From the NCBI RefSeq assembly GCF_000384135.1, contig NZ_KB913028.1, positions 957,351 to 1,021,350 on the forward strand: a stretch of DNA of 64,000 nt. Reading direction: 5' to 3'. Positions 17,340-61,697 of this stretch are shown piece after piece; position 1 is the stretch's first letter, and each line of letters starts with the position of its first letter. The translations under genes and the position numbers were made by a program. The notes below the pieces were generated by a model. It was not told the DNA's origin and ran no database searches. It worked only from the letters and a program-made list of their open reading frames with translations. Source of the DNA: Succinispira mobilis DSM 6222. GTDB taxonomy: Bacteria; Bacillota; Negativicutes; Acidaminococcales; Succinispiraceae.

Positions 17340-17600
17340 ATTTATAAGATAAGTGATGATTAGAACAAGTAGCTGATAACTAAGGCTTTTTAGAGAGAAT
17401 ACGCTAGGCTGGGACGTATTTAAGTTTTTTGTCAGTGAAGTAATCTAGGAGCTGGCAATGTGAAGGCGAAAGTTGTGTAGCTTTGCTCGTAAATAGTGCG
17501 TTAAACTATTTGAGAGTCTGCTTTGCAGAAATTTTGGTGGTACCGCGGAAGTTATAAGCTTTCGTCCTAAATTTATTTGGGATGAAGGCTTTTATTTTTT
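17340..17600 (+). promoter_or_regulatory. T-box leader, valine specifier GUA
   Basis: Senses uncharged tRNA-Val to allow transcription of valS. The T-box sequence GGTGGTACCGCGG lies at 17536-17548. Stem I shows AGAGAG at 17392-17397, an apical AATACG/CGTATT stem around a GGCTGGGA loop, and the conserved GAA followed by GTA at 17440-17442, the Val specifier by comparison with the other two leaders here. The terminator pairs AAGCTTTCGTCC (17556-17567) with GGGATGAAGGCTT and ends in a T-run. Confidence 0.95.
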
Positions 17601-43327: not shown

Positions 43328-44178
43328 AAAAATACAAATTCATTGATATTTATAATGAGAAGTTTGGTGTACGATGGTTATTATCAAAGTTCAAAATAAA
43401 ACCTAATGCTTATTATAATTATAAAAAGAATAGAAAAGCTGATTATTATGCCAACAAGTCCAGTATTCAATCTACCATAGAAGATATCTATCACGAGTAT
43501 GCAGGTAGACCTGGTTATCGAATGCTGAGGATTTTTCTCAATAGAAAAAATATTAATATTAGTAATCTAACCGTTCATAAATACATGAAGGAACTAAGCC
43601 TTAATTCTATTGTTATACGCAAAAAACCAAAATATAAAAAAGGTGATTGCCATAAAAAATTTGACAATCTAGTGAAACAAAATTTTACAGTGGATGCCCC
43701 TAATAAAGTGTGGTGTACTGATTTTACCTACATGTGGCTTGAAGATGGAACAAAACGTTATAATTGTACTATCATTGATTTATTCGATCGTTCTCCTGTT
43801 GCTACGCTAAATAGTAATCGTATTAATGCTGAATTGGCAATTGAAACTCTTAAAATAGCATTAAACCATAATAAAATAAAAGACGGATTTATCCTGCATT
43901 CAGACCAAGGTACACAGTTTACTTCTAGAGATTTTACTGATTTTTGCTCTTTACAAAATATCACACAAAGTATGAGTAAAGCAGGGTGTCCTTATAATAA
44001 TGCACCAATGGGAAGTTTTTATGGAACGTTCAAAGCAGACTTCATAAATCATAATAGTTTTGAGAGTGATGAGGCTTTAAATGAGGCAACTTACAATTAT
44101 ATTTGGGTGTATTATAATCATGTTAGACTGCATTCATCAAATGGATACTTGACACCGTTTGAAAAAAGATTTAGTTAA
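43282..44178 (+). CDS. IS3 transposase OrfB (made by -1 frameshift), active site mutated
   Basis: The -1 frame is open from 43282, continues through SRRILRKGTRLEKYKF and ends at 44178; there is no credible independent start before ATG 43522. It is an rve-fold integrase: first Asp in WCTDFTYMW (codon 43720), second Asp in HSDQGTQF (codon 43903). Exactly 35 residues later, where the catalytic Glu of MESF is expected, codon 44011 is GGA (Gly, APMGSFYGT). One transition from GAA would explain this. The transposase is therefore probably inactive. Confidence 0.9.
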   Translation, partial: LLKKSRRILRKGTRLEKYKFIDIYNEKFGVRWLLSKFKIKPNAYYNYKKNRKADYYANKSSIQSTIEDIYHEYAGRPGYRMLRIFLNRKNINISNLTVHKYMKELSLNSIVIRKKPKYKKGDCHKKFDNLVKQNFTVDAPNKVWCTDFTYMWLEDGTKRYNCTIIDLFDRSPVATLNSNRINAELAIETLKIALNHNKIKDGFILHSDQGTQFTSRDFTDFCSLQNITQSMSKAGCPYNNAPMGSFYGTFKADFINHNSFESDEALNEATYNYIWVYYNHVRLHSSNGYLTPFEKRFS

Positions 44179-44914: not shown

Positions 44915-44942
44915 AATTTCAGCTCCGTCTTTATAAATTTAT

Positions 44943-44974
44943 AAAACTCCTGCTGTTTAAAGAGCAGGAGTTTT
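44943..44974. terminator. Terminator of purL
   Basis: AAAACTCCTGCT and AGCAGGAGTTTT with an 8-nt loop, T-run on the minus strand side. Confidence 0.88.
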
Positions 44975-44985
44975 ATAGTTAGGTT

Positions 44986-47900
44986 TTAGTTGAAATAATT
45001 TACACCTGCTTGGAAAATCAATTGATCTTTATGACCGTGAATGTTTTTCATAATATTTTTGCCAAGGCGTTCAGAATGTCCCATTTTTCCCAATACTCTA
45101 CCATCAGGGCTAGTAATACCTTCGATAGCATACAAAGAACCATTAGGATTAAAGGCTTTATCCATAGTTGGCTGACCTTGTAAGTCAACGTATTGTGTAG
45201 CTACTTGGCCATTTTTAAATAACTGAGCGATTTCAGCTTCGCTAGCATAAAATTTACCTTCGCCGTGCGATAGAGCAATAGAATGAATATCATTTGGTTG
45301 GACAAGTGATAGCCATGGTGAAAGATTAGAAGTTATTTTGGTGCTTGCAACAGTAGAAATATGGCGACCAATATTGTTGTAAGTTAAAGTAGGAGAGTTG
45401 CCATGCATAGGTAAGATTTTGCCGTAAGGTACAAGGCCTAATTTAATCAAGGCTTGAAAACCGTTGCAAATACCTAAAATTAAACCTTGACGATTGTCGA
45501 GCAAGTCGGTTACCGCCTCATTTAAATAGTTATTTCTAAATAGAGCTGCAATGAATTTTCCTGAACCATCTGGTTCGTCACCAGCGCTAAAACCACCAGG
45601 GAACATAAGAATTTGGGAGTTGTTAATAGTTTTAGCTAAATATTGCACACTTTCATTGAGACTAGCAATACTATAATTGCGTATTACCACAGTTTCCACT
45701 GTAGCTCCAGCTAATTCGAAAGCACGTTTGCTATCGTATTCACAATTTGTTCCAGGGAAAACGGGGATAACAACACGAGGTTTGGCAATATTTCCTGGAT
45801 AACAAAGGGGCACAGCTTGAGTATAGATATTATCAATAACGGCGGTTTCTAACGCAGCCTTGGTAGTTGGGAAAATTGGCTCAAGTGTTTGTTGCCAATT
45901 TTCTTTAGCAATGGCTAGAGATATGGTCGTATTATTAATTAAAATATCCGGAGTATTAAGGGTATTACCTAACACCAGATACTCAATATCTTCAAAAAAG
46001 TTTAGGCTATCATTAGCCACTTCTAAAACTAAGCCGCCGATATTAGGCACAAATAAACTATTTAGGTCCAGGACTTCTTTATTAAAAGCAAAACCTAAGT
46101 TGTTACCAAAACACATTTTGCTAATAGTTGCGGCAATTCCCCCTAAACCGACTGTAGCGCTGGCAAGAACTTTATCTGCCAATATAGCCTTGTGTACACA
46201 GTCAAGTTGCTCTTTGTATAGTTTAAAATCAACTACTTCAGCTTCATCGCGAGGACAAGATAGGAAAATAACGCTACTGTTAGCAGTCTTAAATTCATTG
46301 GTCACAACTTTATTAGCGTCGGCAGTACCTACTGCAAAAGAGATTAAGGTTGGAGGAACGTTTTTATCCATAAATGTTCCAGACATACTGTCTTTACCAC
46401 CGATGGCAGGTGTAGCTAACTTTTCTTGCACTAAATAGGCCCCTAATAAAGCCGCAAAAGGTTTGCCCCAAGAGCTTTCATCGGTTAATTTTTCGAAGTA
46501 TTCTTGTAAAGTTAAGCGAATTTTATCAGGGTTAGCACCTAGAGCAACGGCACGAGCAATACTTTCTATTGCGGCATACATGCCCCCATGGAAAGGACTC
46601 CATTTTGCCAAATCAGGATTATAACCACAAGTCATAATGCTAGCAGTTTTCACTTCACCTTTTAAGGCTGGAATTTTAGCTACCATTCCTTCTGCTGGAG
46701 TTAATTGGGTTTGACCACCGAAAGGCATGACCACAGTATTCGCACCTATTGTACTATCAAAGCGTTCCACTAATCCTTTTTGGCTGCATACATTTAAATC
46801 ACGCAGATTAGCCAACCAGGATTCAGTAAGATTAGTTGGATCGGCTTGGAAATTTTGTTCAAAGTAGTTAGTTTCAGTAGGTGGTTTTACAATAATATTA
46901 GTTTTTTGAGCTACACCATTAGTATTTAAAAAATCACGACAAAGATTAACAATATTTTGACCGCGCCAGTTCATAACCAAACGGTTAGTGTTTGTAACTT
47001 TAGCAACTATTGTCGCCTCTAGATTTTCTGCATGGGCGAAATTTATAAAAGCTTCAGCATTATTAGCAGCAACAACAACAGCCATACGTTCTTGCGATTC
47101 TGAAATTGCCAATTCTGTGCCATCTAAACCAGCATATTTTTTGGGAACCATATCTAAATTTATTTCTAAGGAATCAGTTAATTCACCGATAGCAACAGAA
47201 ACACCGCCAGCACCAAAATCGTTACATCGTTTAATTAACTGTGTTACTTTAGAGTTCCTAAACAGCCTTTGAATTTTGCGCTCGGTAGGTGCATTACCTT
47301 TTTGTACTTCGGCGCCACAAGTTGTTAAAGAATCAAGATCATGTTCTTTAGATGAACCTGTTGCGCCACCACAACCGTCGCGCCCTGTTTGACCGCCTAG
47401 TAAAACTACTAAATCGCCTTCCACTGGTGTTTGGCGAATTACAGCACTTTTAGGTGCAGCACCAATTACAGCTCCGACTTCCATACGTTTGGCGACGAAA
47501 TCAGGATGATAATATTCGCGTACATAGCCAGTAGCTAGACCAATCTGATTTCCGTAAGAACTATACCCGCTAGCGGCGCCGATAGTTATTTTGCGTTGTG
47601 GTAATTTCCCCGGCAAAGTTTCACTAATTGGGGCTAAAGGATTGGCCGCACCGGTGATTCTCATAGCTTGATACACGTAGGCTCTGCCAGAAAGTGGATC
47701 GCGAATAGCACCGCCTAAGCAAGTAGCAGCGCCACCAAATGGTTCGATTTCAGTGGGATGGTTATGAGTTTCATTTTTAAACATTACCAACCAATCTTCA
47801 ACTGTATCATCAATTTTCACGGGTACGACAATGCTACAAGCATTTATTTCATCAGAAACATCTAGATCATCTAGTTGACCTTTACTGCGCAAACTTTTCA

Positions 47901-48735
47901 TGCCCATTACAGCGATGTCCATTAAAGTTATTTTACGGTCACTTAGCGCACCATAGACTTGCTCGCGACTGGCTTGGTATTTATCGAAAGCCTCTTGTAC
48001 ACCGCGGTTATATTTATGAGTTATAATATCAATATCTTCAATTTGTGTGTTAAAAGTGGTATGACGACAATGGTCAGACCAGTAAGTGTCGAGAACACGT
48101 ATTTCGGTGATTGTTGGGTCGCGTTGCTCAGAAAGAAAATATTGCTGGCAAAAAGCCACGTCTTCTAGGCTCATAGCTAAAGAATAAGAATTTTTAAATT
48201 CTTGGAGCTGCTCTTTAGACATTTTGGTAAAACCTTGGAGGCTAAGGACATTTTCGGGTTCAGCATGGATTATTTCCAAACTTTCTGGCTTGGTTGAAAT
48301 AGCTTCGCGTGCTTCTACGGGATTTATGCAGTATTTTTTTATTTGAAGAAGTTGTTCTTCTGTAATATTTCCATAAAGCAAATAAACTTTAGCGTAATTA
48401 ACCAGAGGTGGATTTTTTTGCGTAAGAATTTGAATACATTGTGCTGCAGAATCAGCGCGTTGATCATATTGACCAGGTAGGTATTCAACAATGAAAAAAG
48501 TTTCAGTATCTATAGGAAGTTCTTCGTCGTAAACATCGTCTACTGGAGGTTCAGAGAGGACAATACTTTTAGCTAACTGATATTCTTCCGTATTAATACC
48601 AGAAATATCATAGCGATTAATTAATCTTAAGTTTGTTAAAGTTGTAATCCCAAGAGTATTTTGTAAATCAACCAAGAGACTTTTTGCTTCAACAGCAAAA
48701 GCTGGTTTTTTCTCTACAAAAATGCGTTTTACCAT
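44986..48735 (-). CDS. purL: Phosphoribosylformylglycinamidine synthase, single-chain PurL
   Basis: Converts FGAR, ATP and glutamine to FGAM, step four of purine synthesis. The 1249-residue chain fuses the synthetase halves and the glutaminase, unlike the PurL-PurQ-PurS set of many Firmicutes. Early residues include the ADP-site region; NETHNHPTEIEPFGGAATC split over the mid-part marks the synthetase site; the glutaminase spans about 990-1249 with FPGTNCEYDS, the nucleophile Cys in GICNGFQA and the His/Glu in HSERLG-type end. ATG 48735 gives the expected MVKRIFVEKKP start. The Shine-Dalgarno is 33 nt away across a hairpin. Confidence 0.95.
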   Translation of the reverse strand: MVKRIFVEKKPAFAVEAKSLLVDLQNTLGITTLTNLRLINRYDISGINTEEYQLAKSIVLSEPPVDDVYDEELPIDTETFFIVEYLPGQYDQRADSAAQCIQILTQKNPPLVNYAKVYLLYGNITEEQLLQIKKYCINPVEAREAISTKPESLEIIHAEPENVLSLQGFTKMSKEQLQEFKNSYSLAMSLEDVAFCQQYFLSEQRDPTITEIRVLDTYWSDHCRHTTFNTQIEDIDIITHKYNRGVQEAFDKYQASREQVYGALSDRKITLMDIAVMGMKSLRSKGQLDDLDVSDEINACSIVVPVKIDDTVEDWLVMFKNETHNHPTEIEPFGGAATCLGGAIRDPLSGRAYVYQAMRITGAANPLAPISETLPGKLPQRKITIGAASGYSSYGNQIGLATGYVREYYHPDFVAKRMEVGAVIGAAPKSAVIRQTPVEGDLVVLLGGQTGRDGCGGATGSSKEHDLDSLTTCGAEVQKGNAPTERKIQRLFRNSKVTQLIKRCNDFGAGGVSVAIGELTDSLEINLDMVPKKYAGLDGTELAISESQERMAVVVAANNAEAFINFAHAENLEATIVAKVTNTNRLVMNWRGQNIVNLCRDFLNTNGVAQKTNIIVKPPTETNYFEQNFQADPTNLTESWLANLRDLNVCSQKGLVERFDSTIGANTVVMPFGGQTQLTPAEGMVAKIPALKGEVKTASIMTCGYNPDLAKWSPFHGGMYAAIESIARAVALGANPDKIRLTLQEYFEKLTDESSWGKPFAALLGAYLVQEKLATPAIGGKDSMSGTFMDKNVPPTLISFAVGTADANKVVTNEFKTANSSVIFLSCPRDEAEVVDFKLYKEQLDCVHKAILADKVLASATVGLGGIAATISKMCFGNNLGFAFNKEVLDLNSLFVPNIGGLVLEVANDSLNFFEDIEYLVLGNTLNTPDILINNTTISLAIAKENWQQTLEPIFPTTKAALETAVIDNIYTQAVPLCYPGNIAKPRVVIPVFPGTNCEYDSKRAFELAGATVETVVIRNYSIASLNESVQYLAKTINNSQILMFPGGFSAGDEPDGSGKFIAALFRNNYLNEAVTDLLDNRQGLILGICNGFQALIKLGLVPYGKILPMHGNSPTLTYNNIGRHISTVASTKITSNLSPWLSLVQPNDIHSIALSHGEGKFYASEAEIAQLFKNGQVATQYVDLQGQPTMDKAFNPNGSLYAIEGITSPDGRVLGKMGHSERLGKNIMKNIHGHKDQLIFQAGVNYFN

Positions 48736-48741
48736 TAAGTA

Positions 48742-48765
48742 CCGTTATATAAGTTTATATAACGG
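48742..48765 (-). promoter_or_regulatory. Hairpin between Shine-Dalgarno and ATG of purL
   Basis: CCGTTATATAA and TTATATAACGG are exact inverse arms separated by 2 nt. On the minus strand the only good Shine-Dalgarno (AGGTGA, complement of 48769-48774) lies before the hairpin, and ATG 48735 lies after it. Without folding the spacing is 33 nt; with the 24-nt hairpin looped out it is 9 nt. An in-frame TAA inside the hairpin excludes an earlier start. Confidence 0.65.
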
Positions 48766-48815
48766 CTTTCACCTGCCTTTCATATCTGAAAATTTATAAG
48801 AGAATCTCTAGTAAT

Positions 48816-50015
48816 TTAGAATTCTTCATTAATATAATTTGTTTTAGGTGGGAATAATAACTGCAGAATAGCTACATATTTTGGATTAGTAGCTTTAATT
48901 AAATCTTGTCTAATTAAGCTGTCAACTGGATAAGCGCCCAAGTAAAGTTGAGTGAAGGTGCTGATCGACATTTGGATTTGAAATTCGGCTAATTCAGATT
49001 TCTCAACAAAAAGTTTATTGTTAGGCAGAGTTTTTAGAGAAAAAACTGCATTATTTTCTTTAACAAAAGAATCTTCGATTTTGATTGCCAGTTTAATTGC
49101 AATGTTTGGCTCTATAATACAGTTAAGATTAACTAAAGCTTCTTGAACATTGATAATTCTAGCCATCATAAAAGGTGCCAATTGCGGAAAATTAAAGTCA
49201 TCAGCTTGCTTTATATCTAAATTTAGATAAGCCAGATTATCAGGTGTTGCCCGCCATTTGCATAATTTAGTTTGGGTACGATGTTGGTAAACAAAGTTTA
49301 AAAACGTATTTTGACAAGTTGCATCTGCGGTCATTAATTCAGAAATAGTAAAAGCTTCGGAATCAAAATGGTAAAGCAGATATCCTAGCGGCTGTTTGTT
49401 TTTATAAGCAATCAACAAATGGCCGCCTTCGAGAAAATGAACTTTAAGCAGATTTTGGAAATCTAAGTTACTTCTGAGAATGTAGCCATTATAATTAGCT
49501 AAACTTGAGGTGTAGATTTCTTGCAAATCTTGAATAGCACAACTTGCCAAGTCAAACAGTTTAAGTTCAATGGTATTGTCTTTTTGGAAAAAACTTAACT
49601 GCTCTAGTGTTAGATTATAGCGTAAATGATTATGGCAAAAAGCAAAACCATAATGAGTATAAAGTTTGGCAACTATTGGTTTTAGTAAAACGATATAGAT
49701 ATTTTCTGTTTGCAACTTTCTAAAAGTGTAGGCTAATAGTTGGGAAAATGTTCCTAAACCACGAGCTTCAGGCGCAGTAGTTACACCAACAATATAGCGG
49801 GTTGTAACAGGATTATTGTTGATTTGCATTTGATAAGGATTTGCACAAAGCATTGTTAGCAATTTATCTTGAGCAAAATAACCAATAATATTATGCGCTG
49901 TAACATATTCATTAAAGTACCATTGAAAAAAAGGAGTATCTTTTTTTTCAAAAGAATAATCCCATAAGTGTTGCGCTTGAATAAGGTCAGTATTGTTTAG
50001 CAAACGCACTTGCAT
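48816..50015 (-). CDS. Eis-like GNAT acetyltransferase with SCP2-type domain
   Basis: A 399-residue protein with an N-terminal GNAT domain, acetyl-CoA loop VTTAPEARGLGTFSQLL near residue 75, a second GNAT-like half, and a C-terminal sterol-carrier-type domain beginning near 290 (IIEPNIAIKLAI). This is the Eis architecture. Substrates in the family are amines on proteins or aminoglycosides; here unknown. Two bp downstream of the DUF2156 gene, so co-translated. Confidence 0.85.
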   Translation of the reverse strand: MQVRLLNNTDLIQAQHLWDYSFEKKDTPFFQWYFNEYVTAHNIIGYFAQDKLLTMLCANPYQMQINNNPVTTRYIVGVTTAPEARGLGTFSQLLAYTFRKLQTENIYIVLLKPIVAKLYTHYGFAFCHNHLRYNLTLEQLSFFQKDNTIELKLFDLASCAIQDLQEIYTSSLANYNGYILRSNLDFQNLLKVHFLEGGHLLIAYKNKQPLGYLLYHFDSEAFTISELMTADATCQNTFLNFVYQHRTQTKLCKWRATPDNLAYLNLDIKQADDFNFPQLAPFMMARIINVQEALVNLNCIIEPNIAIKLAIKIEDSFVKENNAVFSLKTLPNNKLFVEKSELAEFQIQMSISTFTQLYLGAYPVDSLIRQDLIKATNPKYVAILQLLFPPKTNYINEEF

Positions 50016-50017
50016 GA

Positions 50018-50929
50018 TTAAATCCCCTTTAGTTTTGCAGAATATTTTTCTACCATAAATACAGGATTGTAAGATTCTTTAGCTTTACGCAGGCCTTCAA
50101 GACCCATATCTTCTTCACGATTAATATATTTAATGCTTTGCCAAGCATTGTTGCAAAAATCTTGATTAATTTTAGCGTAAAGACCGCGAATTGCGGGATT
50201 AGCTTTTTCTACATGAATTATAGCAACGTCTTTATTTATCGCTTCACCATAAGTAAAAGCTTCCATTTGCCCATCAATAAAAATAGTCCCTCCTTGAATT
50301 TCTAAGGCTTCTAGATTATTTAGTGATTGATTGATAGCACTCATTTCACAACGAATACTGTGATCACTAGAAATTCCTTTGGCGAGAAACCATTTTCCTA
50401 GAAATTCTTTGCATTGAGGGATCAAATCTGTAGTTAAAGGCAAATATTGATAGTCGGGATATAATTTTAGAAAAGCATTAATATGATTTTTTTTAGAATG
50501 ATACTTGCGACCCGCTAACTTTGCTAAATCTTCACGATTATAGACATAGTCGAAATTATCACGATCGGAAGTTAATTCAAAATTATCCCAAAAACTTTTA
50601 CTAATATCATTTAGAGCGTCTTGGTAAATTCCACGAATTTCACAGGCGGGATTAGCTTTTATTTGAGCTAAGATTAAATCTAAGGCAATATCGATATTGG
50701 CGCCATTTTTGGGAAAAGGCGGTAGAAAAAAATCGATTTCATCACGGCGGACCTTGATTATTAGACAGTTTTCGATTTCTAACCATTTTATATGGTAGCA
50801 TTTACGCCAAGCAAACATATTAGCAAAGGCGCACTCTGAACCAAAGTAAATTTTGTAATTGAAATATTCATCAAAAACAGGTTTGTCTGTAAGTTCTATA
50901 TCTTTAAATAAAATAAAAATCACTCCCAA
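50018..50929 (-). CDS. DUF2156 (LPG-synthase C-terminal-like) protein
   Basis: A soluble protein of about 300 residues with the double-GNAT fold of the DUF2156 family, related to the aminoacyl-transferase domain of MprF. Landmarks: KYHSKKNHINAFLK, a GGTIFIDGQMEAFTYGE segment and INREEDMGLEGLRKAKESY. TTG 50929 has no Shine-Dalgarno; GGGAG lies inside its first codons (50926-50922). The family N-terminus starts near LFKDIELTD, which would fit a rare ATT start at 50914. The true start is thus unsure. First gene of a minus-strand pair with the Eis-like gene. Confidence 0.82.
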   Translation of the reverse strand: MGVIFILFKDIELTDKPVFDEYFNYKIYFGSECAFANMFAWRKCYHIKWLEIENCLIIKVRRDEIDFFLPPFPKNGANIDIALDLILAQIKANPACEIRGIYQDALNDISKSFWDNFELTSDRDNFDYVYNREDLAKLAGRKYHSKKNHINAFLKLYPDYQYLPLTTDLIPQCKEFLGKWFLAKGISSDHSIRCEMSAINQSLNNLEALEIQGGTIFIDGQMEAFTYGEAINKDVAIIHVEKANPAIRGLYAKINQDFCNNAWQSIKYINREEDMGLEGLRKAKESYNPVFMVEKYSAKLKGI

Positions 50930-51204: not shown

Positions 51205-51239
51205 TAAGCTGTAGTTTTAAAAACAGAATATTTAATTCA

Positions 51240-51467
51240 ATGATGGAGAAAAGTAGATGCTAAATTACTTTAAAGAGAGTCAGTGTAAGGTGGAAACTGA
51301 TAAGTAATAGTATCGAATCCGCTCTGGAGATGATAAGTGTTGCAACTTATCCGCAGAAAAAGCGTTAATATTTCATGAGGCTAATATAATACAAAATATT
51401 AGTGAAAAAGGTGGCACCACGGATTTTTATCCCGTCCTTAGTTATAACTAAGGACGGGATTTTTTAT
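51240..51467 (+). promoter_or_regulatory. T-box leader, serine specifier UCC
   Basis: T-box GGTGGCACCACGG at 51410-51422. Stem I: AAGAGAGTCAGT, apical loop GTAAGGTGGAA, ATTACTT/AAGTAAT stem, then GAA followed by TCC at 51318-51320, a Ser codon, then GCTCTGGAG. The terminator is a 14-bp stem TCCCGTCCTTAGTT/AACTAAGGACGGGA (51430-51459) with a T-run. Uncharged tRNA-Ser would switch serA on. Confidence 0.96.
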
Positions 51468-51516: not shown

Positions 51517-53091
51517 ATGAAAATCATAGTAACAGAAAAAATCGCGGATAAAGGTATTGAGGTTTTAAAACAAGCTAAGGACGTTCAAGTTGATGTAAGA
51601 TTTGATATTGAAAGAGCGGAGCTTTTGAAGATTATTCCCGAATACGATGCAATTGTAGTAAGAAGTGTGACTAAGATAAACGAAGAGTTCTATCAGCATG
51701 CGACTAATCTTAAAGTAGTAGGTCGTGCTGGTAATGGGGTAGATAATATTGATGTTGAAGGGGCTACTAAACGTGGTATAATAGCGGTAAATACTCCAGA
51801 ATCAAATATTGTTTCGGCAGCAGAACACAGCATTGGCTTGTTATTATCTTCAGCTCGTAATATAACTATGGCTCATGAGCGGATTACCAGTAAAGTTTGG
51901 GATCGTAATGGCTTAAAAGGTTCAGAACTACTAGGTAAAACAGTGGGAATTATTGGCTTGGGTAGAATAGGTGGCTTAGTGGCGACTAGATTAAAAGCTT
52001 TTGATATGAAAATAATTGCTTACGACCCTTATATTGGCGAAGCTCGTTTCCAAAAATATGGAGCAGAAAGATGTGGTACTTTAGATGAATTACTAGCTAA
52101 AGCAGATTTTATTACTGTTCATACTCCGAAGACAGAAGAAACTTTTAATATGATTAGTGATGAACAGTTTAAAAAAGTCAAAAAAGGTGTTCGGGTTGTA
52201 AACTGTGCACGCGGTGGAATTATCAATGAAGATGCACTCGCAAAAGCTTTAAAAGCAGGAATAGTAGGTAGTGCTGGTATAGATGTTTTGGTAGATGAAC
52301 CTAATCCAACGTCACCATTGATTGGTATGGACCATTGTGTGCTTACACCTCATATTGGGGCAGATACAGTTGAAGCGCAAGATAATGTAGGTAAAACCAT
52401 AGCAGAAGAAGTTTTAGCAGCTTTAAGAGGGGAAATAGTGCCAAATGCGGTTAATCTACCAACCTTACAACCACAAGAATTAGGTGTAATGAAAAACTAC
52501 TTGCAATTGGGTGAATTTTTAGGGAAAATATATTATCAATTAGAAAAAGAAGCTATTGATAAAGTTGAAATTATATATCAAGGGCTAGATAAGATTGAAA
52601 CATCAATGTTATCTAGAGCTATTTTAAAAGGCTTGTTCCAACCAATTTTGAAAGAGCGTGTTAACTATGTAAATGCACTTTTGACGGCCGAAGCTCGTGG
52701 TGTGGATGTGATTGAAAGTATTAATAAGACTGCTGACAAGCATCAAAATCTAATTAAATTAAATATTTGTAGTGCAGAAAAAATATTTACGGTAAGCGGT
52801 ACAGTATTTGATAAAACGGAAATTAGAATTTTAGAAATAGATGGTTATAAATTTGATTTAACACCTACGCCATTTATGCTAGTTGCTAAAAATGAGGATA
52901 AGCCAGGAATGATCGGTCAAATTGGGACACTTCTAGGTGCGAGTAAGGTAAATATTGCCACAATGCAAGTTAGTCGTGCCGAGGATTCAGCAATGATGTT
53001 TATGACTGTTGATTCTAATGTAAATAAAGCTACATTGGATCTGTTAAGAGGTTTAGAAGGAATTATTAAGGTAGATTTGGTGAGACTGTAA
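51517..53091 (+). CDS. serA: D-3-phosphoglycerate dehydrogenase
   Basis: First step of serine synthesis, 3-phosphoglycerate to phosphohydroxypyruvate with NAD. The 524-residue long form has the substrate domain with VVGRAGNGVDNID, the NAD-binding GLGRIGGLVA near residue 150, catalytic Arg (NCARGG), Glu (DVLVDEPNP) and His (LTPHIGA), then the intervening ASB domain and a C-terminal ACT domain (KPGMIGQIGTLLG) for serine feedback. GAGAGGAG precedes ATG. Regulated by the Ser T-box, so both tRNA charging and end-product binding act on this step. Confidence 0.98.
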   Translation: MKIIVTEKIADKGIEVLKQAKDVQVDVRFDIERAELLKIIPEYDAIVVRSVTKINEEFYQHATNLKVVGRAGNGVDNIDVEGATKRGIIAVNTPESNIVSAAEHSIGLLLSSARNITMAHERITSKVWDRNGLKGSELLGKTVGIIGLGRIGGLVATRLKAFDMKIIAYDPYIGEARFQKYGAERCGTLDELLAKADFITVHTPKTEETFNMISDEQFKKVKKGVRVVNCARGGIINEDALAKALKAGIVGSAGIDVLVDEPNPTSPLIGMDHCVLTPHIGADTVEAQDNVGKTIAEEVLAALRGEIVPNAVNLPTLQPQELGVMKNYLQLGEFLGKIYYQLEKEAIDKVEIIYQGLDKIETSMLSRAILKGLFQPILKERVNYVNALLTAEARGVDVIESINKTADKHQNLIKLNICSAEKIFTVSGTVFDKTEIRILEIDGYKFDLTPTPFMLVAKNEDKPGMIGQIGTLLGASKVNIATMQVSRAEDSAMMFMTVDSNVNKATLDLLRGLEGIIKVDLVRL

Positions 53092-61434: not shown

Positions 61435-61469
61435 GTAAAACAAGGTTGTTACCAAAATAATAATATAGT

Positions 61470-61697
61470 AAAAACTTTGAATGGGATTAAAACTTTATCG
61501 ATATTAGAACAGAGAGCTGATGGTTTGGTGTGAATCAGTCTAATAGATATAAGTGAAACTCACCCCAGGAGTTCCTAAATAGGCGTTGCTAGCGTTAATA
61601 GTAGCTTTTGGCACTAAGTTAAAAACTAGGGTGGTACCGCGACATTGTTTTGTTCGCCCCTATCTATGTACGTTGTATGTAGATAGGGGTTTTTATT
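61470..61697 (+). promoter_or_regulatory. T-box leader, leucine specifier CUC
   Basis: T-box AGGGTGGTACCGCG at 61628-61641. Stem I has AGAGAGCTGAT, a GGTTTGGTG apical loop and ATCAG, then GTGAAACTCACC. By alignment with the other two leaders the specifier is CTC (61559-61561, Leu), as in the Bacillus ilv-leu leader; ACT one base left is the alternative. Terminator: CCCCTATCTA/TAGATAGGGG (61657-61689) with a T-run. Confidence 0.93.

Follow-up and report, generated by a model that had tools for sequence, protein, structure and literature searches.

The leader of purL in Succinispira mobilis DSM 6222 carries a perfect hairpin between a strong Shine-Dalgarno (SD) sequence and the start codon, and the best reading of this arrangement, to which we give a probability of roughly 55%, is a split ribosome-binding site at which translation would be initiated through the distal SD with the hairpin looped out. 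The leader was analyzed within a 64,000-nucleotide stretch of contig NZ_KB913028.1, referred to here as the window. In the proposed mechanism, the strong SD, AGGUGA, sits 33 nt 5' of the purL AUG, 24 nt of the spacer would fold into the hairpin and be looped out on the 30S subunit, and the distal SD would then be effectively 9 nt from the AUG, or 7 nt if a closing G.U pair forms. Most probably, a short inverted repeat was inserted or generated in an ordinary SD-AUG spacer at the junction between purL and the GNAT-family gene that precedes it, and initiation survived this change because the insert folds on itself. We infer that the RNA folds in this way in vivo, that 30S subunits can accommodate the fold and that initiation relies on the distal SD, while recognizing that a structure at this position might obstruct the 30S subunit instead.

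On the minus strand, the leader reads ...GATATGAAAGGC AGGTGA AAG CCGTTATATAA AC TTATATAACGG TACTTA ATG GTAAAACGC..., which matches base for base the layout described in the original prediction (AGGTGA, 3 nt, an 11-bp stem with a 2-nt loop, 6 nt, ATG), and both of the spacings given there, linear and looped out, were reproduced. The SD (48769-48774), a 6-nt match to the anti-SD complement, is separated by AAG (3 nt) from the 24-nt hairpin (48742-48765), whose 11-bp core stem is perfect and free of bulges. Between the hairpin and the ATG lies the 6-nt spacer TACTTA (48736-48741), which contains no SD. The predicted folding energy of the hairpin RNA is -9.8 kcal/mol alone and -12.8 kcal/mol with the closing G.U pair, corresponding to a z-score of about -5 relative to shuffled sequences. 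In a short-window fold, the modeled stem is lengthened by weak UGA/UUA pairs with small internal loops, and in a 156-nt context the SD and AUG are predicted to be partly paired with other bases. A mini-ORF (ATG AAA GGC AGG TGA; 48769-48783, minus strand), the UGA of which forms the 3' end of the purL SD, is probably fortuitous because it lacks an SD of its own.

Several other roles for the hairpin were considered and set aside. Temperature sensing had been raised as a possibility, but the mean pairing probability of the stem is 0.98-0.99 from 20 to 60 °C in the model, and a stem that does not melt and that covers neither the SD nor the AUG is not a plausible RNA thermometer. The companion suggestion of ligand sensing by a riboswitch of known family found no credible Rfam match at the purL leader. 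An intrinsic terminator was likewise rejected, as no T run follows the stem on either strand.

The gene served by this leader encodes a large-type FGAM synthase of 1249 amino acids (44986-48735, minus strand; TIGR01857, 1829 bits), residues 3-1248 of which align to positions 1-1239 of the profile. Its ATG occupies 48735-48733 on the minus strand, and an in-frame TAA within the hairpin (48747-48745), 12 nt upstream, makes it the only possible start near the N-terminus of the TIGR01857 match; the assignment of this start in the original prediction is thus upheld by both the stop codon and the profile, which begins at residue 3. The protein begins MVKRIFVEKK, whereas in most relatives it begins MSxIRRIFVEKK, two residues earlier. 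The gene is intact, single-copy and the only FGAM synthase gene of the genome, and with purF and purH present elsewhere in the genome it should be needed and is presumably expressed. Furthermore, no ATG, GTG or TTG was found at a normal distance 3' of AGGTGA, which excludes an alternative start codon for the distal SD and leaves it without any other gene to serve.

Upstream of purL lie, on the same strand, a GNAT/SCP2 acetyltransferase gene (48816-50015; PF13527/PF17668/PF13530), the adjacency of which to purL is conserved in the order, and an LPG_synthase_C (DUF2156-type) gene (50018-50929; PF09924), the first in the likely operon, with its place in the gene order also conserved in relatives. 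Downstream, a 15-bp terminator-like inverted repeat (44940-44977) occupies the interval between purL and a gene for a YbaK-type Cys-tRNA(Pro) deacylase. Elsewhere in the window, T-box leaders are present on the plus strand at 51231-51442, 17347-17572 and 61468-61664, the first of which precedes an ORF at 51517 resembling D-3-phosphoglycerate dehydrogenase (serA), and a plus-strand ORF at 43522-44178 resembles part of an IS3-type transposase (integrase core).

The strength of the purL SD was compared with SD usage in 337 genes, drawn from the window and a 400-kb sample of the same genome. A standard anti-SD was assumed, an assumption backed by the SD usage of the genome itself; the 16S rRNA was not found by RF00177 or by a 3'-end pattern in this single-contig, 98% complete genome and is masked or unassembled. 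In the zone normally occupied by an SD, 313 of the 337 genes have a match of at least 4 nt to the anti-SD complement, with a median duplex energy of -8.7 kcal/mol, and about 7% of the sampled genes have no clear match. The corresponding zone of purL yields only -3.1 kcal/mol, with no 4-nt match, and is weaker than those of approximately 96% of the 337 genes. The distal SD, on the other hand, forms a duplex of -12.0 kcal/mol in its linear context and of -11.2 kcal/mol in the bridged window, placing it among about the strongest 10% of the genome sample.

Because the pairing partner of AGGUGA is the 5' portion of the anti-SD, its bridged spacing in the GGAGG register is 12 nt, or 10 nt with the G.U pair, compared with 36 nt in linear form. 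The mode of GGAGG-aligned spacing in the genome is 7 nt, with 36, 27 and 11 genes at 10, 11 and 12 nt, respectively. The looped-out spacing, which had been described as ideal, is therefore better regarded as workable but on the long side.

Chance does not readily produce such a leader. After dinucleotide shuffling of 646 leaders, a perfect arm of at least 11 nt was present in 1 of 25,840 40-nt leaders, and shuffling of the purL leader itself gave such an arm in 2 of 20,000 cases. Of the null windows, 0.26% had a bridged SD at least as strong as that of purL (-11.2 kcal/mol). If the two features are independent, the chance of their joint occurrence is about 1e-7 to 3e-7 per gene, and hence well below one such layout is expected per genome. 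Among 698 genes sampled from surveyed stretches that include the window and cover 864 kb (approximately 41% of the genome, in two sets), purL is the only credible case of an SD-hairpin-AUG layout, the two further entries from that survey both reflecting a single wrong start choice in a gene whose SD is normal. Elsewhere in the genome, perfect inverted repeats close to start codons are terminator-like, otherwise lie 5' of the SD, or accompany a doubtful start, and the layout was found in none of 641 genes around the purL loci of other Firmicutes. Nor is the palindrome a mobile or repeated element, since a search allowing up to 3 mismatches found no further copy in the genome, and none was present in the remaining 62 genomes of the order or in IMG/VR.

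A comparison of purL leaders, made at the level of the order with genomes from outside the genus and family of Succinispira, indicates that the split layout is lineage-specific: in all 48 readable leaders the SD is normally spaced, and none has a hairpin near the purL start (stems of at most 6 bp). With a proximal SD in place, these 48 leaders have no need of a hairpin. The order LPG_synthase_C/DUF2156-GNAT-purL, on one strand, recurs in those loci of relatives that could be checked, with a GNAT-purL gap of 17-48 nt versus about 80 nt here. In one family (f3; L153 and L154), the leaders end ...GAGGTGAATATATG or ...GAGGTGTATATATG, with an AGGTG core just 5' of the ATG; these ends are close to the present leader minus its hairpin, which is the layout expected had no insert been acquired. 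The simplest history, as far as the sequences suggest, would be that a small palindrome arose within an ordinary spacer.

The proven split ribosome-binding sites in the literature searched are those of two bacteriophage T4 genes, as summarized in a review that describes such sites as "accommodated" (Nivinskas, 1999; Malys and Nivinskas, 2009; both via PMC3014915). According to that review, a hairpin reduces the SD-AUG spacing from 22 to 5 nt in gene 38 and from 27 to 11 nt in gene 25, and mutations that destabilize the structure reduce initiation in both genes (PMC3014915). As in those genes, the purL SD is too far from the AUG (33 nt, versus 27 and 22 nt in T4), no proximal SD is present, a predicted hairpin lies between the two elements, and the looped distance is workable (9 or 7 nt, versus 11 and 5 nt). 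The purL site also resembles that of gene 25 in its location at an intercistronic junction, and, as for the two T4 genes, whose layout is confined to close relatives, leaders further off are ordinary. It differs from them in belonging to a chromosomal purine-synthesis gene, in its perfect, A/U-rich stem and in being known from the sequence of one genome. The original prediction of hairpin-bridged initiation is supported by the strong distal SD, which has no other start codon to serve, by the lack of a proximal SD in a genome where SDs are nearly universal, by the integrity and single-copy status of the gene and by the T4 precedents, while the mechanism itself is one that we infer.

The most serious alternative, although an unlikely one, is that purL is translated independently of the SD, with the hairpin neutral or damping: ribosomes would load at the A/U-rich, single-stranded region that adjoins the AUG, or after termination of GNAT translation, the distal SD would be a leftover, and the hairpin would do no more than reduce purL expression. 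The roughly 7% of sampled genes that lack a clear SD match are consistent with this possibility, and a chance hairpin, although expected in fewer than one leader per genome, is not impossible. However, few SDs in the genome are stronger than the distal one, and removal of the hairpin brings it into range, a coincidence with a probability of about 0.3%; moreover, purL encodes the sole FGAM synthase of the genome. Reloading after GNAT termination is disfavored by the distance of about 80 nt from the GNAT stop codon to the purL start, a gap too long for efficient translational coupling.

It is improbable that the palindrome acts at the DNA level as part of a promoter for a leaderless purL mRNA starting at or beside the AUG. 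By eye, GTGAAA (4/6) can be recognized 17 nt upstream of a TATAAC (5/6) that belongs to the palindrome, with +1 expected 6-9 nt downstream, that is, at the AUG, but this pair was not listed by a promoter scan, and promoter-like matches occur here at the level of chance (2 found versus 1.5 expected). The conserved DUF2156-GNAT-purL order and the 17-48-nt gaps of relatives suggest co-transcription instead, and most Firmicutes initiate inefficiently on leaderless mRNAs.

Slightly less probable still is that the split site is itself regulated, with the hairpin as a control element and bridging tuned by polyamines, an RNA-binding protein or RNase III. In E. coli, the polyamine-modulon mRNAs for OppA, RMF, RpoE and CpxR have a distant SD that is joined to the AUG by a stem (PMC4191411, PMC7177335), and purL resembles these cellular mRNAs in that its SD and AUG lie at the ends of a stem proposed to join them; in the short-window fold alone, the purL stem is extended by UGA/UUA pairs with small internal loops. 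Unlike the bulged stems of the polyamine modulon, however, the core stem of purL is perfect, its linear distance is 33 nt rather than the 11 nt of rmf (PMC4191411, PMC7177335), and nothing links the leader to any signal. It is similarly doubtful, although again conceivable, that a bacterial housekeeping gene relies entirely on a hairpin-bridged SD for its translation and that purL output is set at this bridge by polyamines, an RNA-binding protein or cleavage by RNase III. Least probable is an operator function, in which a transcription factor, involved for instance in purine or stress control, would bind this perfect 11-bp dyad ahead of a biosynthetic gene. The dyad has no other copy in the genome even with 3 mismatches allowed, does not occur in the 62 further genomes of the order and would fall within a likely operon, and its half-site pattern, CCGTTAT-N10-ATAACGG, is rarer than the reversed control (92 versus 295), which leaves no evident operator family.

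Hairpin-bridged initiation at the distal SD remains the preferred reading, and purL is a good candidate for a cellular representative of a class of ribosome-binding site that is already known but rare. No cellular example of a T4-type split site was found in the literature searched, and because most subscription journals lay outside its scope, no priority is claimed for the purL case. If the reading is correct, it would provide a clean cellular case with a perfect stem, in an intact, single-copy biosynthetic gene, indicating that bacteria tolerate hairpins within the SD-AUG spacer, and both the spacer rules of gene finders and models of translation rate would need a term for looped-out structure. 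The purL case also suggests how split sites may originate, namely through the appearance of a small palindrome in an ordinary spacer.
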